Of a DNA stretch of 64,000 bases, positions 8,659 through 55,648 are shown one piece after another. Location of the stretch: NCBI RefSeq assembly GCF_003330845.1, contig NZ_CP026121.1, positions 3,267,501 to 3,331,500 of the forward strand, written 5' to 3'. This stretch comes from Streptomyces sp. Go-475. GTDB taxonomy: Bacteria > Actinomycetota > Actinomycetes > Streptomycetales > Streptomycetaceae. A program made the position numbers and the translations under genes. The notes below the pieces were generated by a model. The model did not search any database and was not told the origin of the DNA. It saw only the letters and a list, made by a program, of their open reading frames with translations. Within the stretch, counting starts at the first letter, position 1. Every line of letters starts with the position of its first letter.

Positions 8659-10323
8659 CTACCGCCGCGGAGGCGGGCCGTCGATCGGGCGGCCCGGCAC
8701 CCCGGGTCGCCGCTGCCAGGGCAGCGGGCCGGCGGGTGGCCGGTAAGCGACGCCCAGGGCGTCGAGCCGCCGGTAGTGGGCGGCCATACGGCGCTCGAAA
8801 CCGGCGAAGTCCCGGTCCGCCGGGGCGGGCAGGGCGCTCCAGGCGACCTCGGCGAAGGCGGCGAGCCGGGGGAACGCCTGGTAGTCCACGCGCGCGGGGT
8901 CCTCCATCACCTCGGTCCACAGGTTGGCCTGGGTGCCCAGCACGTGCCGGGCCTCCTCGGGCGTCAACTCCGGGGGAACGGGCTCGAACCGGTAGACGTC
9001 CTCCAGGGTGCGCACCCACCCGATCGGTACCGGCTCCTCGGGGCCCGGGGCCTGACGGTGGTCCAGGTACACCTGCTGCTCGGGGCACATGACGACGTCG
9101 TGACCGGCCCGGGCGGCGGCGATGCCCCCGGCTTAGCCGCGCCAGGAGGACACGGCCGCGCCCTCGGCCAGGCCGCCCTCCAGGATTTCGTCCCAGCCGA
9201 TGAGCCGGCGCCCGCGCGCGGTGAGCCAGGTGTCGAAGTGCCGGACGAACCAGGACTGGAGCTCGTCCTCGTCCGCGAGCCCGAGTTCCCCGATGCGCGC
9301 CTGGGCCGTCTCCGACCGCCGCCACTGCTCCTTGGGGCATTCGTCGCCGCCGATGTGGACGAACTCCGAGGGGAACAGCTCCAGCACTTCCTCGAGGACC
9401 CCCTCGTAGAAGCGCAGGGTGTTGTCAGTGGGGGCGAGTACGTTCGGGCTGATTCCCCAGGTGTCCCAGACGGAGAGCGCGGAGGTGTCGATGACGTCGG
9501 TGTTGCCGAGTTCCGGGTATGCGGCGATGGCGGCCTGCGAGTGTCCGGGTACGTCGATTTCGGGGACGACGGTGATATGCCGCTCGGCCGCGTAGGCGAC
9601 GATCTCGCGGATGTCGTCCTGGGTGTAGTAGCCGCCGTGCGGCTTCTCGTCCCACAAGGGGGAGGCGCGGTGGCCGGTTTTCGTACGGGCGCGCCATGAG
9701 CCGATCTCGGTCAGTCGCGGGTGCCGCTCGATCTCGATGCGCCAGCCCTGGTCGTCCGTCAGGTGGAAGTGGAAGACGTTGAGTTTGTGCGCCGCCATCA
9801 GGTCGAGGTAACGCAGCACGCCTTCCTTGGGCATGAAGTGCCGGGCGACGTCGAGCATCAGGCCGCGCCAGCGGAATCGGGGCGCGTCCTCGACGGTGAC
9901 GGCGGGTACGTCCCACGCCCGTTTCCCGGACACCGGCGCCCGGCGGAAGGCCTCGGGGCCCAGGAGCTGACGGAAGGTCTGGGCGCCCCAGAACAGGCCG
10001 CTGGCGCTCGCCCCTTCGATGAGGGCCCCGCCGGCGCCGACCGTCAGCCGGTACGCCTCGGGCCCGCCCAGGTCCGGCCGGACGCGCAGGCGGACACCCT
10101 CGTCCGCGCCGCCGGTGCGCGGGTCCAGCGGCAGTCCGGTCGCCGCACCGACGGTTGTCCGCAGCCACCGCGCGGCCCGCTCGGCACCGGGGCCCGCCTC
10201 CACGCCGGTGTCCGCGTCGAGCACGAACCCCGGCCCGTTCCCGGTCTCGATGCGCAGGGGCGCCGGAATCAGGCCCGTCACAGGAGGAGTCACATCAGGA
10301 GGAGTCACGTCAGGAGGAGTCAC
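8659..10323 (-). pseudogene. GH20 beta-N-acetylhexosaminidase, interrupted by an in-frame stop
   Basis: One continuous frame of 554 codons broken by a single TAA at 9133-9135 (codon 397). Before it the protein has the GH20 N-terminal domain and the (b/a)8 catalytic barrel, with the Asp-Glu pair in HIGGDECPKEQW (D327, E328), FHLTDDQGWRIEI near 195 and VVPEIDVPGHSQAAI near 245. After it the frame continues as family-like sequence (AGGIAAARAGHDVVMCPEQQ, then barrel strands with a NLWTE motif). GAA to TAA is the simplest lesion (SSWRG-stop-AGGIAAARAG). The product would normally cut terminal GlcNAc from chitooligosaccharides. GTG 10323 is placed 5 bases after an AAGGA box that lies in the permease remnant. 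A real pseudogene, a sequencing error or a recent mutation are all possible, but the damaged neighbours favour decay. Confidence 0.88.
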
Positions 10324-10328
10324 ATCAG
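10289..10328. repeat. 15-bp tandem repeat at the permease/hexosaminidase gene junction
   Basis: Units of 15 bp (gtcacatcaggagga, gtcacgtcaggagga, then a partial copy) cover the stop of the permease remnant and the first codons of the hexosaminidase gene. There they encode repeated T-P-P-D-V units, each with an in-frame GTG. Because 15 is a multiple of three, copy-number change would keep the frame. Confidence 0.8.
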
Positions 10329-11087
10329 TCCTTCACCGCTCCGCCCAGTCCGGAGACCAGGCGCCGCTGTACGAGTACGAAGAAGACCAGGACCGGAATC
10401 GTCATCACCGTGGAAGCGGCCATGACGCCGCCCCAGTCCGGGTCGTCGGGCTTGTAGAAGACCAGCAGGGCCATCGGCAGCGTCGACTGCGAGGTGTCGC
10501 TGATGATGAACGACTTGGCGAGCAGGAAGTCGTTCCAGGCGGAGATGAAGGAGAACACGCTGGTGGCCACGAGACCCGGAAGGACGAGGGGGAAAAGGAT
10601 CTGCCACAGGAATCGCGCCCGGCTCGCCCCGTCGATGTACGCGGCCTCCTCCAGCGCCTCCGGAACGGCTTTCACGAACCCCCGCAGCATCCAGATCGCG
10701 AAGGGCAGCGAGAAGGCGATGTGGGGCAGGATCAGCGAACCCAGCGTGTTCAGCTGACCGGCGTCCCGCATGAGGAAGAACAGGGGATCGTGAGGGCTTC
10801 CACGGGCACCATCTGGGCCACCAGAAACATGATCAACAGGGTGGTCCGCATGCGGAAGCGGAATCGTGTCACGGCCGTCGCGGCGAGAAACGCGATCAGC
10901 GCGGAGGCGATCACGACACTGCCCGCGACGATGAGGCTGTTGAGGAAGTAACGGCCGAATTCCTGTTGCCCGAAGACGCGTCGGAAGGAATCCAGGGAGG
11001 GCGCGAGCGTCCATGGCCTGGGCTCGCTCGACTCGATCTCCCCGGCCGGTTTGAAGGCGCTGAGCACCATCCAGTAGAGGGGACCAG
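10325..11087 (-). pseudogene. Sugar ABC transporter permease (MalG-type) remnant: 5' truncated and frameshifted
   Basis: The remnant starts abruptly in the first membrane segment (PLYWMVLSAFKPAGEIESS), continues through the second segment and MVPVEALTIP, then loses frame at the C run 10783-10786. One C is missing, since restoring it gives TIPLFFLMRDAGQLNTLGS. It then runs on to the normal C-terminus with the EAA loop EALEEAAYIDGASRARFLWQ and the end RLVSGLGGAVKD. The true N-terminus is absent, and upstream sequence at about 11085-11093 jumps directly into the binding-protein remnant. The stop overlaps the region of the hexosaminidase start, so the genes were once one operon. It cannot make a working permease. 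Confidence 0.85.
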
Positions 11088-11530
11088 CCGCTGCATCAGG
11101 TCGACGGCGAGCGTCCGGTGCGAGGTGCTCTTCAGGACGCCGATGTTGTTGCCGCCGGCGAAGGCGGGCGCGATCGAGCCGGGCTTCACCCCCGGCAGCG
11201 GGACGACGGCGTACTTGCCCTTGACTTCCCGGCCTCGACGGCGGTGTGGCTGAAGTCGCCGCCGATGGCCATGCCGGCCTTGCCCGCGGCGAACGCGGAG
11301 ATCGTGTCGTTGCCGCCCATGCCCGCGCACTTGGCGGCCGGGCAGTTGTCGTCGCTGAACAGGGACGTGTACGCCTTGATGCCCTTGCGGGCCTGCGGGC
11401 TGTCGATGCCGGAGGCGTACGAGCCGCCCTTGCCGCTCGCGAGTTCACCGCCGTTGGCCCACACGAACGGCATCGCGCCGTAGGTGTAGGCGCCGCCGAC
11501 AACCAGGCCGTACAGCTCGGGCCTGGCCGC
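11088..11530 (-). pseudogene. Extracellular sugar-binding protein remnant (both ends missing, frameshifted)
   Basis: The middle part of a carbohydrate-binding lipoprotein is readable: ELYGLVVGGAYTYGAMPFVW, then GIDSPQARKGIKAYTSLFS, FAAGKAGMAIGGDFSHTAVE. A shift of frame near 11229-11235 follows, and the other frame continues VKGKYAVVPLPGVKPGSIAP and KSTSHRTLAVDLMQRL. The signal peptide and roughly the first 150 residues are absent, and the C-terminus is fused to the permease remnant. No MalF-type first permease remains between them, so a deletion removed the end of this gene, that permease and the start of MalG. The upstream boundary coincides with the palindrome at 11529-11550. Confidence 0.82.
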
Positions 11531-11550
11531 GCAAGTGTTGCAACTTGCGC
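11529..11550. promoter_or_regulatory. 22-bp perfect palindrome, operator-like
   Basis: GCGCAAG, 8 bases, CTTGCGC, a perfect inverted repeat with a TTGCAA core. It resembles LacI-family operators of sugar operons in actinobacteria. It sits at the upstream edge of the decayed sugar-uptake genes, as an operator would before deletion of the binding-protein 5' end. The assignment to a regulator is inference. Confidence 0.55.
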
Positions 11551-11669
11551 AATGAAGGTTTCGCCATGCACAACACGCCGGAGGCTAGGGACTGCATGAA
11601 CATGCCCACAAGAGGTCTCAACCACTCTGTGACCGGCTGACGCACCCCGTGCAACGCCCGGACAGCACA

Positions 11670-52893: not shown

Positions 52894-54297
52894 ATGCGCA
52901 TGACGAGCAGCACCATCCGGAAACGCTGGTCGCCCGAGCGGGACAAGGCGACCCCCCAGCACCGCAGAGCCGCCAAGGCCGCGGCAGCCGTCGCCGCGGG
53001 AGCGCTCGCGCTCTCGCTCACCGCCTGCGGAGGCGCCGACGACGGGAACAGTGAACCCCAGGGCAACACCGAGGAGACCACCGACAACGTCACCCTTCCC
53101 AAGCTGGACGGGACGAGCCTGGAGATCGCCGCCGTGTGGACCGGCGCCGAACAGGCCAACTTCAAGAAGGTCCTTTCGGAGTTCGAGAAGCGCACGGGCG
53201 CCAAGGTCACGTTCGTCCCCGCCCAGGACCCGATCATCAACTTCATCGGTTCGAAGGTGGCCGGCGGGCAGCCGCCGGACATCGCGATGCTGCCGCAGCC
53301 GGGCGCCATCAAGCAGGCCGTGGACCGCGGCTGGGCCAAGCCGCTCGGCGCCGACGCCCTCAAGGAGCTCGGCGAGAACTACTCGCAGGGCTGGCAGGAC
53401 ATCGGCAAGGTCGGCGGCAAGCAGTACGGCGTCTACTACAAGGCCGCCAACAAGTCCCTGATCTGGTACAACAACCAGGTCTTCGAGAACGCCGGGGCGA
53501 GCGAGCCCGAGACCTGGCCGGACCTGCTGAAGACGGCACAGACGGTCTACGACTCCGGCGTCACCCCGTTCTCCGTCGGCGGCGCCGAGGGCTGGACGCT
53601 GACCGACTGGTTCGAGAACGTCTACCTCTCCCAGGCCGGGCCGGAGAAGTACGACCAGCTGGCCAAGCACGAGATCAAGTGGACGGACCCGTCCGTGAAG
53701 GACGCGCTGACCACCCTCGCGCAGGTCTGGGGCAAGACCGACTACATCGCGACCGGGGCGTTGCAGACCGACTTCCCGGCCTCCGTCACGCAGGTCTTCA
53801 CCGGCGGGGACCAGCCCAAGGCGGCCATGGTCGCGGCGGGCGACTTCGCGCAGGTCAACATCCCGCAGAACATGAAGGTGGGCACGGACGCGAAGGTCTT
53901 CCCGTTCCCGGCGGTCGGTGACAACGGGCCGGTGGTCTCGGGCGGCGACGCGGCCGTGATCCTGGAGGACTCGAAGGGAGCGCAGGCCCTGGCCACCTGG
54001 CTCGCCTCGCCGGACGCGGCACAGATCCAGGCGAAGCTCGGCGGCTACCTGTCGCCGAACAAGAACGTGCCGAACTCCGCGTACCCCAACGCGGTGCAGC
54101 AGCGGATCGCCAAGGCGCTCATCGACGCCGGTGACGACTTCCGCTTCGACATGTCCGACCAGGCCCCGCAGGCCTTCGGCGGCACGCCCGGCAAGGGTGA
54201 GTGGAAGATCCTCCAGGACTTCCTGAAGAACCCGAAGGACGTGGCGGGTACGCAGCAGAAGCTGGAGGCCGAAGCGGCCGCGGCCTACGGAGGCTGA
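52894..54297 (+). CDS. Carbohydrate ABC transporter substrate-binding lipoprotein
   Basis: 467 residues. Long signal peptide with lipobox SLTACGG (lipid Cys at residue 45). The mature part is the family-1 solute-binding fold: TSLEIAAVWTGAEQANFKKV, PPDIAMLPQPGAIKQAVDRG, then the C-lobe with AALVAAGDFAQV-like (AAMVAAGDFAQVNIPQNMKV). It captures a sugar, possibly an alpha-glucoside, at the outer face and delivers it to the two permeases that follow. First gene of a three-gene operon (5 bases to the next start). ATG 52894; no ATPase gene is present, so a shared MsiK-type ATPase is expected. Confidence 0.92.
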   Translation: MRMTSSTIRKRWSPERDKATPQHRRAAKAAAAVAAGALALSLTACGGADDGNSEPQGNTEETTDNVTLPKLDGTSLEIAAVWTGAEQANFKKVLSEFEKRTGAKVTFVPAQDPIINFIGSKVAGGQPPDIAMLPQPGAIKQAVDRGWAKPLGADALKELGENYSQGWQDIGKVGGKQYGVYYKAANKSLIWYNNQVFENAGASEPETWPDLLKTAQTVYDSGVTPFSVGGAEGWTLTDWFENVYLSQAGPEKYDQLAKHEIKWTDPSVKDALTTLAQVWGKTDYIATGALQTDFPASVTQVFTGGDQPKAAMVAAGDFAQVNIPQNMKVGTDAKVFPFPAVGDNGPVVSGGDAAVILEDSKGAQALATWLASPDAAQIQAKLGGYLSPNKNVPNSAYPNAVQQRIAKALIDAGDDFRFDMSDQAPQAFGGTPGKGEWKILQDFLKNPKDVAGTQQKLEAEAAAAYGG

Positions 54298-54301
54298 CGG
54301 C

Positions 54302-55648
54302 ATGACGTCGGCCACGGCGGCAGGGGGCGTCAAGCCCCCTGCCGCTCCCAAGTCGCGCAAGAGTGTGACCGGCACCCGCAGGATGGTCGCGGCGCTGTTC
54401 CTGCTGCCCGCGCTCGTCCTGCTCGGCGCGCTCGTGGTGTACCCGATCGGGTACTCGGTGGTCCGCAGCTTCTACGACCAGTCCGGCGACGGCTTCGCCG
54501 GAATCGACAACTACAAGGCCCTCTTCACCGACGAGGGCATCCGCACCGCGCTGAAGAACAACGTCTTCTGGGTGGTGTTCGCGCCGACGGTCGCCACGGC
54601 CCTCGGCCTGATCTTCGCGGTGCTGACCGAACGGGTGCGCTGGGGCACGGCCTTCAAGCTGGTCGTCTTCATGCCGATGGCGATCTCGATGCTGGCCGCG
54701 GGCATCATCTTCCGCCTGGTGTACGACCAGGACCCGGACAAGGGCGTGGCGAACGCGGTGTGGGTGGGCGTGCACGACACGTTCGCCCAGGCGTCGGCGT
54801 TCCCGAAGGCCCACCCGGGCCGGGAGTCGCCGCTGGAGGCGGCGGGCGGCGGCGCGTTCATCACGAAGTCGCCCGTCCGTGTCGGCGAGGCGGTCTCGCT
54901 GCCGATGGTGGGCGTCGCGCCGGACCTGATGCCGGACGGCGCGAAGCCGGCGGTGGCGCCGAAGCCCGAGCCGGACAAGGTCACCGGCACGACCTGGCAG
55001 GACTTCACGCGCGGCAAGGGCGTCGGCAAGCTCAACAGCGTCGACGCGTCCGAACTGGGCTACGCCGGGATGCGCGTCGAGGCCGTGAAGGACGGCCGGG
55101 TCGTGGCCTCCACCACGGCCGGCGACGACGGTACCTTCACGCTGCCGGCCTCGGCCGACGGGGCGCAACTGCGGCTCCCGGACAGCAACTTCAAGGAGCC
55201 GTACAACGGCCTGGACTGGCTCGGCCCGTCCCTGGTCACGCCGTCCATCATCGGCGCGTACATCTGGATGTGGGCGGGCTTCGCGATGGTGCTGATCGCG
55301 GCCGGGCTCGCGGGCGTGCCCCGGGAGCTGCTGGAGGCCGCCCGGGTCGACGGGGCGAGTGAGTGGCAGGTGTTCCGACGGGTCACGGTGCCGCTGCTGG
55401 CGCCGGTCCTCGCGGTCGTCACCGTCACCCTGATGATCAACGTGCTGAAGATCTTCGACCTGGTCTTCATCATCGCCCCCGGCTCCGCCCAGGACGACGC
55501 GAACGTGCTCGCCCTGGAGCTGTACCGCAAGGGCTTCTCCGAGGACCAGCCGGGCATCGCCAGCGCCATCTCGGTGTTCCTGCTGCTGCTCGTGATCCCG
55601 GTGATGTGGTTCAACGTCAGGCGGCTGCGGCGGGAGGTGCGGCGATGA
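54302..55648 (+). CDS. Carbohydrate ABC permease (MalF type) with extracytoplasmic insert
   Basis: 448 residues, about 140 more than usual. The first helix is MVAALFLLPALVLLGALVVY. After the third helix comes an insert of about 150 residues (about 150-295) with a b-strand-rich end (RVVASTTAGDDGTFTLPASA). The permease then resumes (SIIGAYIWMWAGFAMVLIAA) and has the EAA loop ELLEAARVDGASEWQVFRRV for contact with the ATPase. The insert may fold outside the membrane and touch the binding protein. Start ATG 54302; stop overlaps the next gene by 4 bases. Confidence 0.9.
   Translation: MTSATAAGGVKPPAAPKSRKSVTGTRRMVAALFLLPALVLLGALVVYPIGYSVVRSFYDQSGDGFAGIDNYKALFTDEGIRTALKNNVFWVVFAPTVATALGLIFAVLTERVRWGTAFKLVVFMPMAISMLAAGIIFRLVYDQDPDKGVANAVWVGVHDTFAQASAFPKAHPGRESPLEAAGGGAFITKSPVRVGEAVSLPMVGVAPDLMPDGAKPAVAPKPEPDKVTGTTWQDFTRGKGVGKLNSVDASELGYAGMRVEAVKDGRVVASTTAGDDGTFTLPASADGAQLRLPDSNFKEPYNGLDWLGPSLVTPSIIGAYIWMWAGFAMVLIAAGLAGVPRELLEAARVDGASEWQVFRRVTVPLLAPVLAVVTVTLMINVLKIFDLVFIIAPGSAQDDANVLALELYRKGFSEDQPGIASAISVFLLLLVIPVMWFNVRRLRREVRR

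Follow-up and report, generated by a model that had tools for sequence, protein, structure and literature searches.

The closest described counterpart of the system considered here is the ong cluster of the marine bacterium Pseudoalteromonas prydzensis ACAM 620, which converts GlcNAc-GlcNAc1A (N-acetylglucosamine linked to N-acetylglucosaminic acid) to 2-keto-3-deoxygluconate (KDG)-6-phosphate by means of a GH20 enzyme (OngA), a D-aminoacylase-like deacetylase (OngB), a D-amino-acid-deaminase-like protein (OngC), RidA and a KDG kinase (PMC9537276). Streptomyces are major degraders of chitin in soil and hold several genes for lytic polysaccharide monooxygenases (LPMOs); LPMO10G of S. coelicolor releases C1-oxidised (aldonic) chito-oligosaccharides, with lactones as possible products (PMC9820598). 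In the open-licence PubMed Central (PMC) literature as far as it was covered, we found no Streptomyces account of GlcNAc1A catabolism, of oxidised-chitin import or of the fate of the oxidised ends. Here we describe the remains of an operon for a solute-binding protein (SBP), two permeases and a GH20 beta-hexosaminidase in Streptomyces sp. Go-475, situated in a stretch of 64,000 nucleotides (the window; contig NZ_CP026121.1, positions 3,267,501 to 3,331,500) of a single chromosome of 8,570,609 bases. We see an even chance that a regulon for oxidised chitin, controlled by IclR, extends across the genus Streptomyces, in which a near-universal core cluster, eda and a lactonase are joined by a dispensable and often lost ATP-binding cassette (ABC) importer and GH20, this importer being perhaps the missing uptake route for LPMO products and the window a late stage of its loss.

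The intact form of the operon is found in the nearest operon-bearing relative, the metagenome-assembled Streptomyces RH52_bin.036 (locus L033), where genes for an SBP (432 aa), MalF (452), MalG and GH20 (553) lie at the same site, between the murA/AlgH and xanthine dehydrogenase (XDH) genes. Aligned with this operon, at a DNA identity of 95.5-97.6%, and with that of S. coeruleorubidus (L035), the window copy displays five lesions: two large deletions, the loss of a single base at each of two places, and an in-frame stop. Deletion A removed about 580 bp of L033, comprising the ribosome-binding site, the SBP start codon and the first ~190 codons, and with them the lipoprotein signal (recognised by eye). 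Deletion B removed about 1,725 bp, comprising the SBP end, the whole of MalF and the MalG start, so that the two remnants are directly fused. The SBP remnant has 97.6% DNA identity with L033 5066-5515, reaches 24.1 bits against SBP_bac_1, below the cut-off of 26, and has lost one base between 11225 and 11226. Another base is lost at 10783-10786 in the MalG remnant, which tblastn aligns with L033 MalG over aa 26-130 in one frame and over aa 129-282 in another. The GH20 frame, for which no signal peptide is evident by eye, is cut by a TAA at 9133-9135 into the pieces 9133-10323 and 8659-9132; the same frame is open in all 53 relatives with an intact operon. The window copy of the CUT1-type importer operon lacks open and complete genes. 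A preliminary description of the window, made from the letters alone, had already recognised a decayed GH20 and MalFG-type uptake operon with at least four independent lesions, namely the stop, the permease frameshift, an SBP frameshift near 11230 and an SBP-permease fusion near 11090, together with the absence of a first permease; all of these recur in our alignment, and deletion A is an addition to them.

The putative 35-bp operator of the window operon does persist despite this decay. In relatives, the element GTTGYR-N5-YGMAAY-N3-CRTTGCRYATRTYGC stands directly upstream of the SBP gene. We compared 80 named loci, those out of 510 that are most similar to the window GH20 and therefore biased towards near kin, and found the tandem element in 53 of the 53 intact operons, without mismatch in 40, with one in eight and with two in five. 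In the 25 transporter-less loci, it is present with up to three mismatches in eight, with four or five in three, and is missing in 14. Across the 80 loci and the window (1,379,735 bases), no unrelated place matches at five mismatches or fewer, and in three loci the same operator place was re-found on the opposite strand. An initial 19-bp pattern with one mismatch was discarded, as it did not outperform its reversed control (7 vs 15 per strand), and it was one site of a single-box scan of the strain's own genome that led to the tandem form.

The second tandem site of this genome (C1:5465807, locus L144) lies between divergent genes, with an Amidohydro_3 protein nearest to D-aminoacylases and a D-serine-deaminase-like protein (D-ser_dehydrat) on one side, and a PfkB sugar kinase, an IclR-family regulator, a RidA protein and a GntP permease on the other. 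All 30 orthologous clusters that were fetched carry the tandem site, with 0-3 mismatches. The pattern was widened to fit the promoters of this cluster and of the SBP operon, and was scanned at up to three mismatches in 10 and then 20 further hand-picked genomes, of which 7 and 15 have an SBP match, the neighbouring genes of every place being classified by tblastn. The scans gave 25 and 47 distinct places, 72 in sum (the 48 rows of the second set count one palindromic place on both strands), which fall at the KDG-kinase cluster (10 + 20), the SBP operon (8 + 16), the 2-keto-3-deoxy-6-phosphogluconate (KDPG) aldolase gene eda (5 + 10) and a 7-bladed lactonase (2 + 1), and nowhere else; the reversed pattern matched not once in the 10 genomes and once in the 20. 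Expressed per genome, the cluster site is present in 30 of 30, the SBP-operon site in 24, the eda site in 15 and the lactonase site in three. The SBP-operon site occurs in all 22 genomes with an SBP match and in two with gene remnants, one of which is the window's genome, where tandem sites also stand at the KDG-kinase cluster and at eda. Since neither the aldolase nor the lactonase was used to build the pattern, their sites support it independently. Nothing can be learnt from whether cluster and transporter occur together, as 387 of 392 genomes have a match to the deaminase-like gene. We regard the predicted membership of the decayed operon in a shared regulon as strongly supported.

The regulator acting through the operator is most likely the IclR protein of the KDG-kinase cluster, as judged from the form of the site and its neighbourhood. 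Sites of the IclR family include a GTT-11-AAC type and occur in tandem with 18-22 nt between centres (PMC8222616). The boxes described here are of the form GTT-11-AAY, their centres are 21 nt apart and an IclR gene adjoins the cluster site; box form and spacing thus make this IclR the natural candidate. This Streptomyces target set is not described in the passages of PMC8222616 that were consulted. About 50 bp further upstream than the tandem operator, at a conserved position, lies an element resembling the dre sites of DasR, whose published consensus is A(G/C)TGGTCTAGACCA(G/C)T (PMC4398421). The window copy differs from it at three positions, and the 53 intact loci at two (3 loci), three (42), four (7) or six (1); mononucleotide shuffles reached three or fewer mismatches in 2 of 1,060 cases, a comparison in which independence is overstated because the loci are related. 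The coordinates of these elements and of the gene remnants are collected in Table 1.

Table 1. Positions in the window of the gene remnants, deletion junctions and promoter elements of the decayed operon.
Feature	Position	Strand	Basis or remark
GH20 beta-hexosaminidase pseudogene	8659..10323	-	PF00728 on both pieces; 553-aa intact homologue in L033
MalG-type second permease remnant, start absent	10325..11083	-	PF00528
Deletion B junction (direct SBP/MalG fusion)	11083..11084	-	alignment to L033
SBP remnant, ~aa 189-338 of 432 only	11084..11533	-	DNA alignment to L033; Pfam match below cut-off
22-bp palindrome of the preliminary description	11529..11550		~17 nt of promoter; ~5 nt SBP-derived, across deletion A
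Deletion A junction	11532..11534	-	alignment to L033
35-bp tandem operator	11540..11574	-	one mismatch to GTTGYR-N5-YGMAAY-N3-CRTTGCRYATRTYGC
dre-like (DasR-type) element AGTGGTTGAGACCTCT	11611..11626	-	13/16 to the published consensus

The targets of the operator suggest what the operon may have served. GH20, deacylase-like, deaminase-like, RidA and KDG-kinase-like proteins are united in one system here, as they are in ong (PMC9537276). Because the target genes form an ong-like route, LPMOs yield C1-oxidised products and this genome holds five AA10 LPMO genes, we lean towards reading the operon as what is left of a system that took up N-acetylated sugar-acid oligosaccharides, most likely oxidised chito-oligosaccharides, and hydrolysed them in the cytosol. 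Substrate and enzyme activities are inferred from sequence here; a chitin-derived substrate would agree best with the gene set as a whole. In the model that we propose, the intact operon, which encodes a lipoprotein SBP, a pair of CUT1-type permeases and a cytosolic hexosaminidase of family GH20, would form the uptake-and-first-cut arm of a small regulon governed by the cluster IclR via the 35-bp operator. Its substrate would be the C1-oxidised chito-oligosaccharides released by the strain's own LPMOs, and the route would lead from the lactonase through oligosaccharide import, GH20 cleavage, deacylation and deamination (with RidA) to KDG kinase and KDPG aldolase. In this strain, import and cleavage would have been removed by the five lesions, with operator, dre-like site, catabolic cluster and eda remaining. 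The preliminary description had proposed a GlcNAc or chitooligosaccharide uptake unit; the combination of GH20 and MalFG-type genes holds, but the plain substrate covers only part of the case, since through the shared operator the operon is linked with genes of sugar-acid catabolism (those for the deacylase, the deaminase, KDG kinase and KDPG aldolase), which points to oxidised chito-oligosaccharides.

A number of observations weigh against this reading. The ong cluster has an RpiR-type regulator, OngR, which in ong does not control the operon holding the GH20, whereas the Streptomyces cluster has an IclR; its GlcNAc1A transporter is of the SSS type and not an ABC importer (PMC9537276). The deacylase finds its best match in the PDB in a D-aminoacylase (242 bits, vs 202 for PpOngB), has Thr at the position of PpOngB Ser292 (AfDam alignment; numbering of PMC12017989), and so lacks the OngB specificity residue, and has Asp where D-aminoacylases have a metal-ligand Cys; GntP and the deaminase could also suit N-acyl-D-amino acids. 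The fourth letter of each half-site is G here and Y in the IclR consensus of PMC8222616. The IclR protein scores 165 bits against the KdgR model (cut-off 275) and the PfkB kinase 188.5 bits against the KDG-kinase model (cut-off 400), each being the best NCBIfam match. Because the pattern had been loosened until it covered the first two target classes, these are not independent of it; the eda sites have three mismatches in 13 of 15 cases and are seen in only 15 of 30 genomes, the lactonase sites have three in 3 of 3 and are seen in only three of 30, and the operator is absent from the strain's five LPMO genes, where the best place has seven mismatches. The OngA of ong is periplasmic and the pathway has TonB receptors (PMC9537276), in contrast to a GH20 without evident signal in Streptomyces, and the Streptomyces system adds GntP, a lactonase and eda and is spread over several loci. 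The SBP itself is of little help: its nearest PDB sequence, the acarbose/maltose binding protein GacH (3jzj), is too distant at only 91 bits for a ligand to be deduced, NCBIfam matches lie far below cut-off, and assignment of the substrate from the SBP was consequently rejected. We also observed that the D-aminoacylase-like protein (L144:1884-3497) has an insertion region poorly matched by the D-aminoacylases of the PDB, and that its cluster is near-universal in the genus; judged by its sequence, it possibly represents a separate deacylase subgroup.

Two other roles for the operon have to be considered. It could have been a third, redundant importer of chitobiose or chitooligosaccharides under DasR, lost in an ordinary way, the shared operator then reflecting general amino-sugar control and not an oxidised substrate. 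The GH20 partner gene and the conserved dre-like site are in keeping with this, further (GlcNAc)2 ABC transporters are implied in S. coelicolor (PMC6167110), as is an unknown importer in S. venezuelae (PMC12370203). However, none of the 72 operator places lies at dasABC, all being at KDG/KDPG-type genes, the lactonase or the SBP operon, and the SBP reaches only 22.6 bits against the NgcE model TIGR03851 (cut-off 399.65) and the dasR-dasA-like genes lie at another locus (L132), which places it outside the NgcE/DasA group; we consider this role unlikely, though not negligible. The known importers DasABC-DasD and NgcEFG of S. coelicolor share with the operon the CUT1 type and, in the case of das, a dre-like element, here in the dasR-dasA spacer with two mismatches, but differ in their separate loci, weak SBP similarity and other operator; das-like genes and an NgcE are still open in this genome. 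Alternatively, the operon could have imported another N-acetylhexosamine (HexNAc)-containing sugar acid, for instance fragments of glycosaminoglycans or of bacterial polysaccharides that contain a uronic acid, the acid entering via KDG. KDG kinase and KDPG aldolase also serve uronate routes and GH20 enzymes cleave several HexNAc linkages; against this, no uronate isomerase, reductase or lyase was encountered among the target genes, and the D-aminoacylase-like and deaminase-like genes would be left unexplained. This makes a uronate role improbable, and oxidised chito-oligosaccharides remain our preferred substrate.

It is equally necessary to ask whether the lesions are real, and whether what stands at the head of the operon is what it seems. 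Base-call error cannot explain the two large deletions. The three point lesions are known from a single assembly and not from reads, so that error is possible there, and this too counts against our account; both indels are of a single base, and the window branch has no excess of amino-acid changes. Yet three lesions fall within about 950 remnant codons and no stop change was found in 1,860 flanking codons on the window branch. The four flanking genes of the same assembly that were compared with L033 (XDH, murA, AlgH and part of maeB) are free of frame-breaking gaps, the single gap, of three bases in XDH, being on the L033 side. In addition, stops or frameshifts in GH20 are known from other genomes (L020 and L087, described below), and the transporter is dead in either case. 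We accordingly give assembly error, with only the two deletions genuine, little chance. The preliminary description had also taken a 22-bp palindrome at the head of the operon for an operator that persists. This palindrome is the product of the deletion A junction and not an ancestral operator, because the outer bases of one side (5 nt) are SBP coding DNA brought there by the deletion. Its self-complementarity is 16 of 22 in the window, 8 of 22 at the matching place in L033 and 0-12 of 22 among the 53 intact loci, none of which holds the exact 22-mer; one further base, A in the window, is T in 52 of these loci and C in one. A functional operator under selection is hardly credible here, suitably placed and near-perfect as the inverted repeat is; it is the overlapping 35-bp tandem site that persists. 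A template switch was also considered as a possible origin of the palindrome. The case warns that palindromes in front of decayed operons can arise through the decay itself.

Measured against a DNA divergence of 2.4-4.5% from L033, the loss looks recent. Substitutions were polarised with L035, and with S. swartbergensis (L034) where the gene is present, leaving 17 unpolarised sites in GH20, one in MalG and none in SBP. In GH20, the window branch has 25 synonymous and 13 non-synonymous changes and one stop, and the L033 branch 21 and 15; the corresponding counts, which are small, are 5/2 and 10/1 in the MalG part and 3/2 and 2/3 in the SBP part. The polarised counts thus give no sign of long neutral drift on the window branch, which is why we read the decay as recent; old decay was rejected, as the window-branch counts resemble those of the sister branch.

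The decay in the window is one instance of a repeated event. Among the 80 loci, 53 have SBP, MalF, MalG and GH20 in this order, i.e. an SBP (PF01547/PF13416) and two BPD_transp-type permeases as expected of a CUT1-type importer, with SBP, MalF and MalG open (MalG in 53 of 53; MalF of L061 at 84% coverage). The transporter is absent with both flanks present in 25 and cut by a contig end in two. GH20 is open in all 53 transporter-bearing and in 24 of the 25 transporter-less loci. On a GH20 DNA tree of 79 rows with the window added, transporter state needs 16 changes, 12 of which are forced by well-supported branches. MalG remnants in seven of the 25 transporter-less loci (at only 37% identity in L080) show that these are losses; in the others the absence may be ancestral. 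Genus-wide, 224 of 392 genomes have an SBP match (E <= 1e-140) and 362 have a GH20 match. In the window's own four-row clade, L033 and L035 retain the transporter, and its loss took different routes in the window and in S. swartbergensis. In the latter (L034:7573-7934), it is replaced by a MalG stub and an N-terminal fragment of an IS605 OrfB (PF12323), an independent loss. The operon of L234 (genome G196), the second genome in which the operator stands before gene remnants, is also decaying: its operator has one mismatch, SBP and MalF survive only as fragments, and MalG is in two overlapping pieces. S. hygroscopicus NBRC 3401 (L087) has an apparently frameshifted GH20 and no transporter; L020 (G029) has a GH20 with an in-frame TGA in a genome with an SBP match. 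Four transporter-less loci (L041, L047, L049 and L064) have a diverged operator (2-5 mismatches) directly before GH20, and such an orphan GH20 may remain under the same control. The operator supplies a defined set of genes, with a specific importer named as candidate, and offers a reason for the frequent GH20 without transporter, in that import is repeatedly lost and the hydrolase retained. The S. coelicolor orthologues are presumably SCO2943 and SCO2946, and neither is mentioned in the open-licence PMC literature searched.

The preliminary description spoke of a pathway being lost. This is borne out for the uptake operon, the only arm known to be lost in the strain, but not for chitin use as a whole, the loss of which was rejected. 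A locus resembling dasR-dasABC-dasD (L132) is open, with a GntR/UTRA gene, an SBP, two permease frames and a GH3 gene, which we take to be the das genes from their order. Likewise open are an NgcE that scores above its family cut-off, a second GH20, the five AA10 genes, and the catabolic cluster and eda with their operator sites; single GlcNAc1A might still enter by GntP. Elsewhere in the window, at 52894-55648, there is a second, open pair of binding-protein and permease genes (PF13416, PF00528), separate from the decayed operon.

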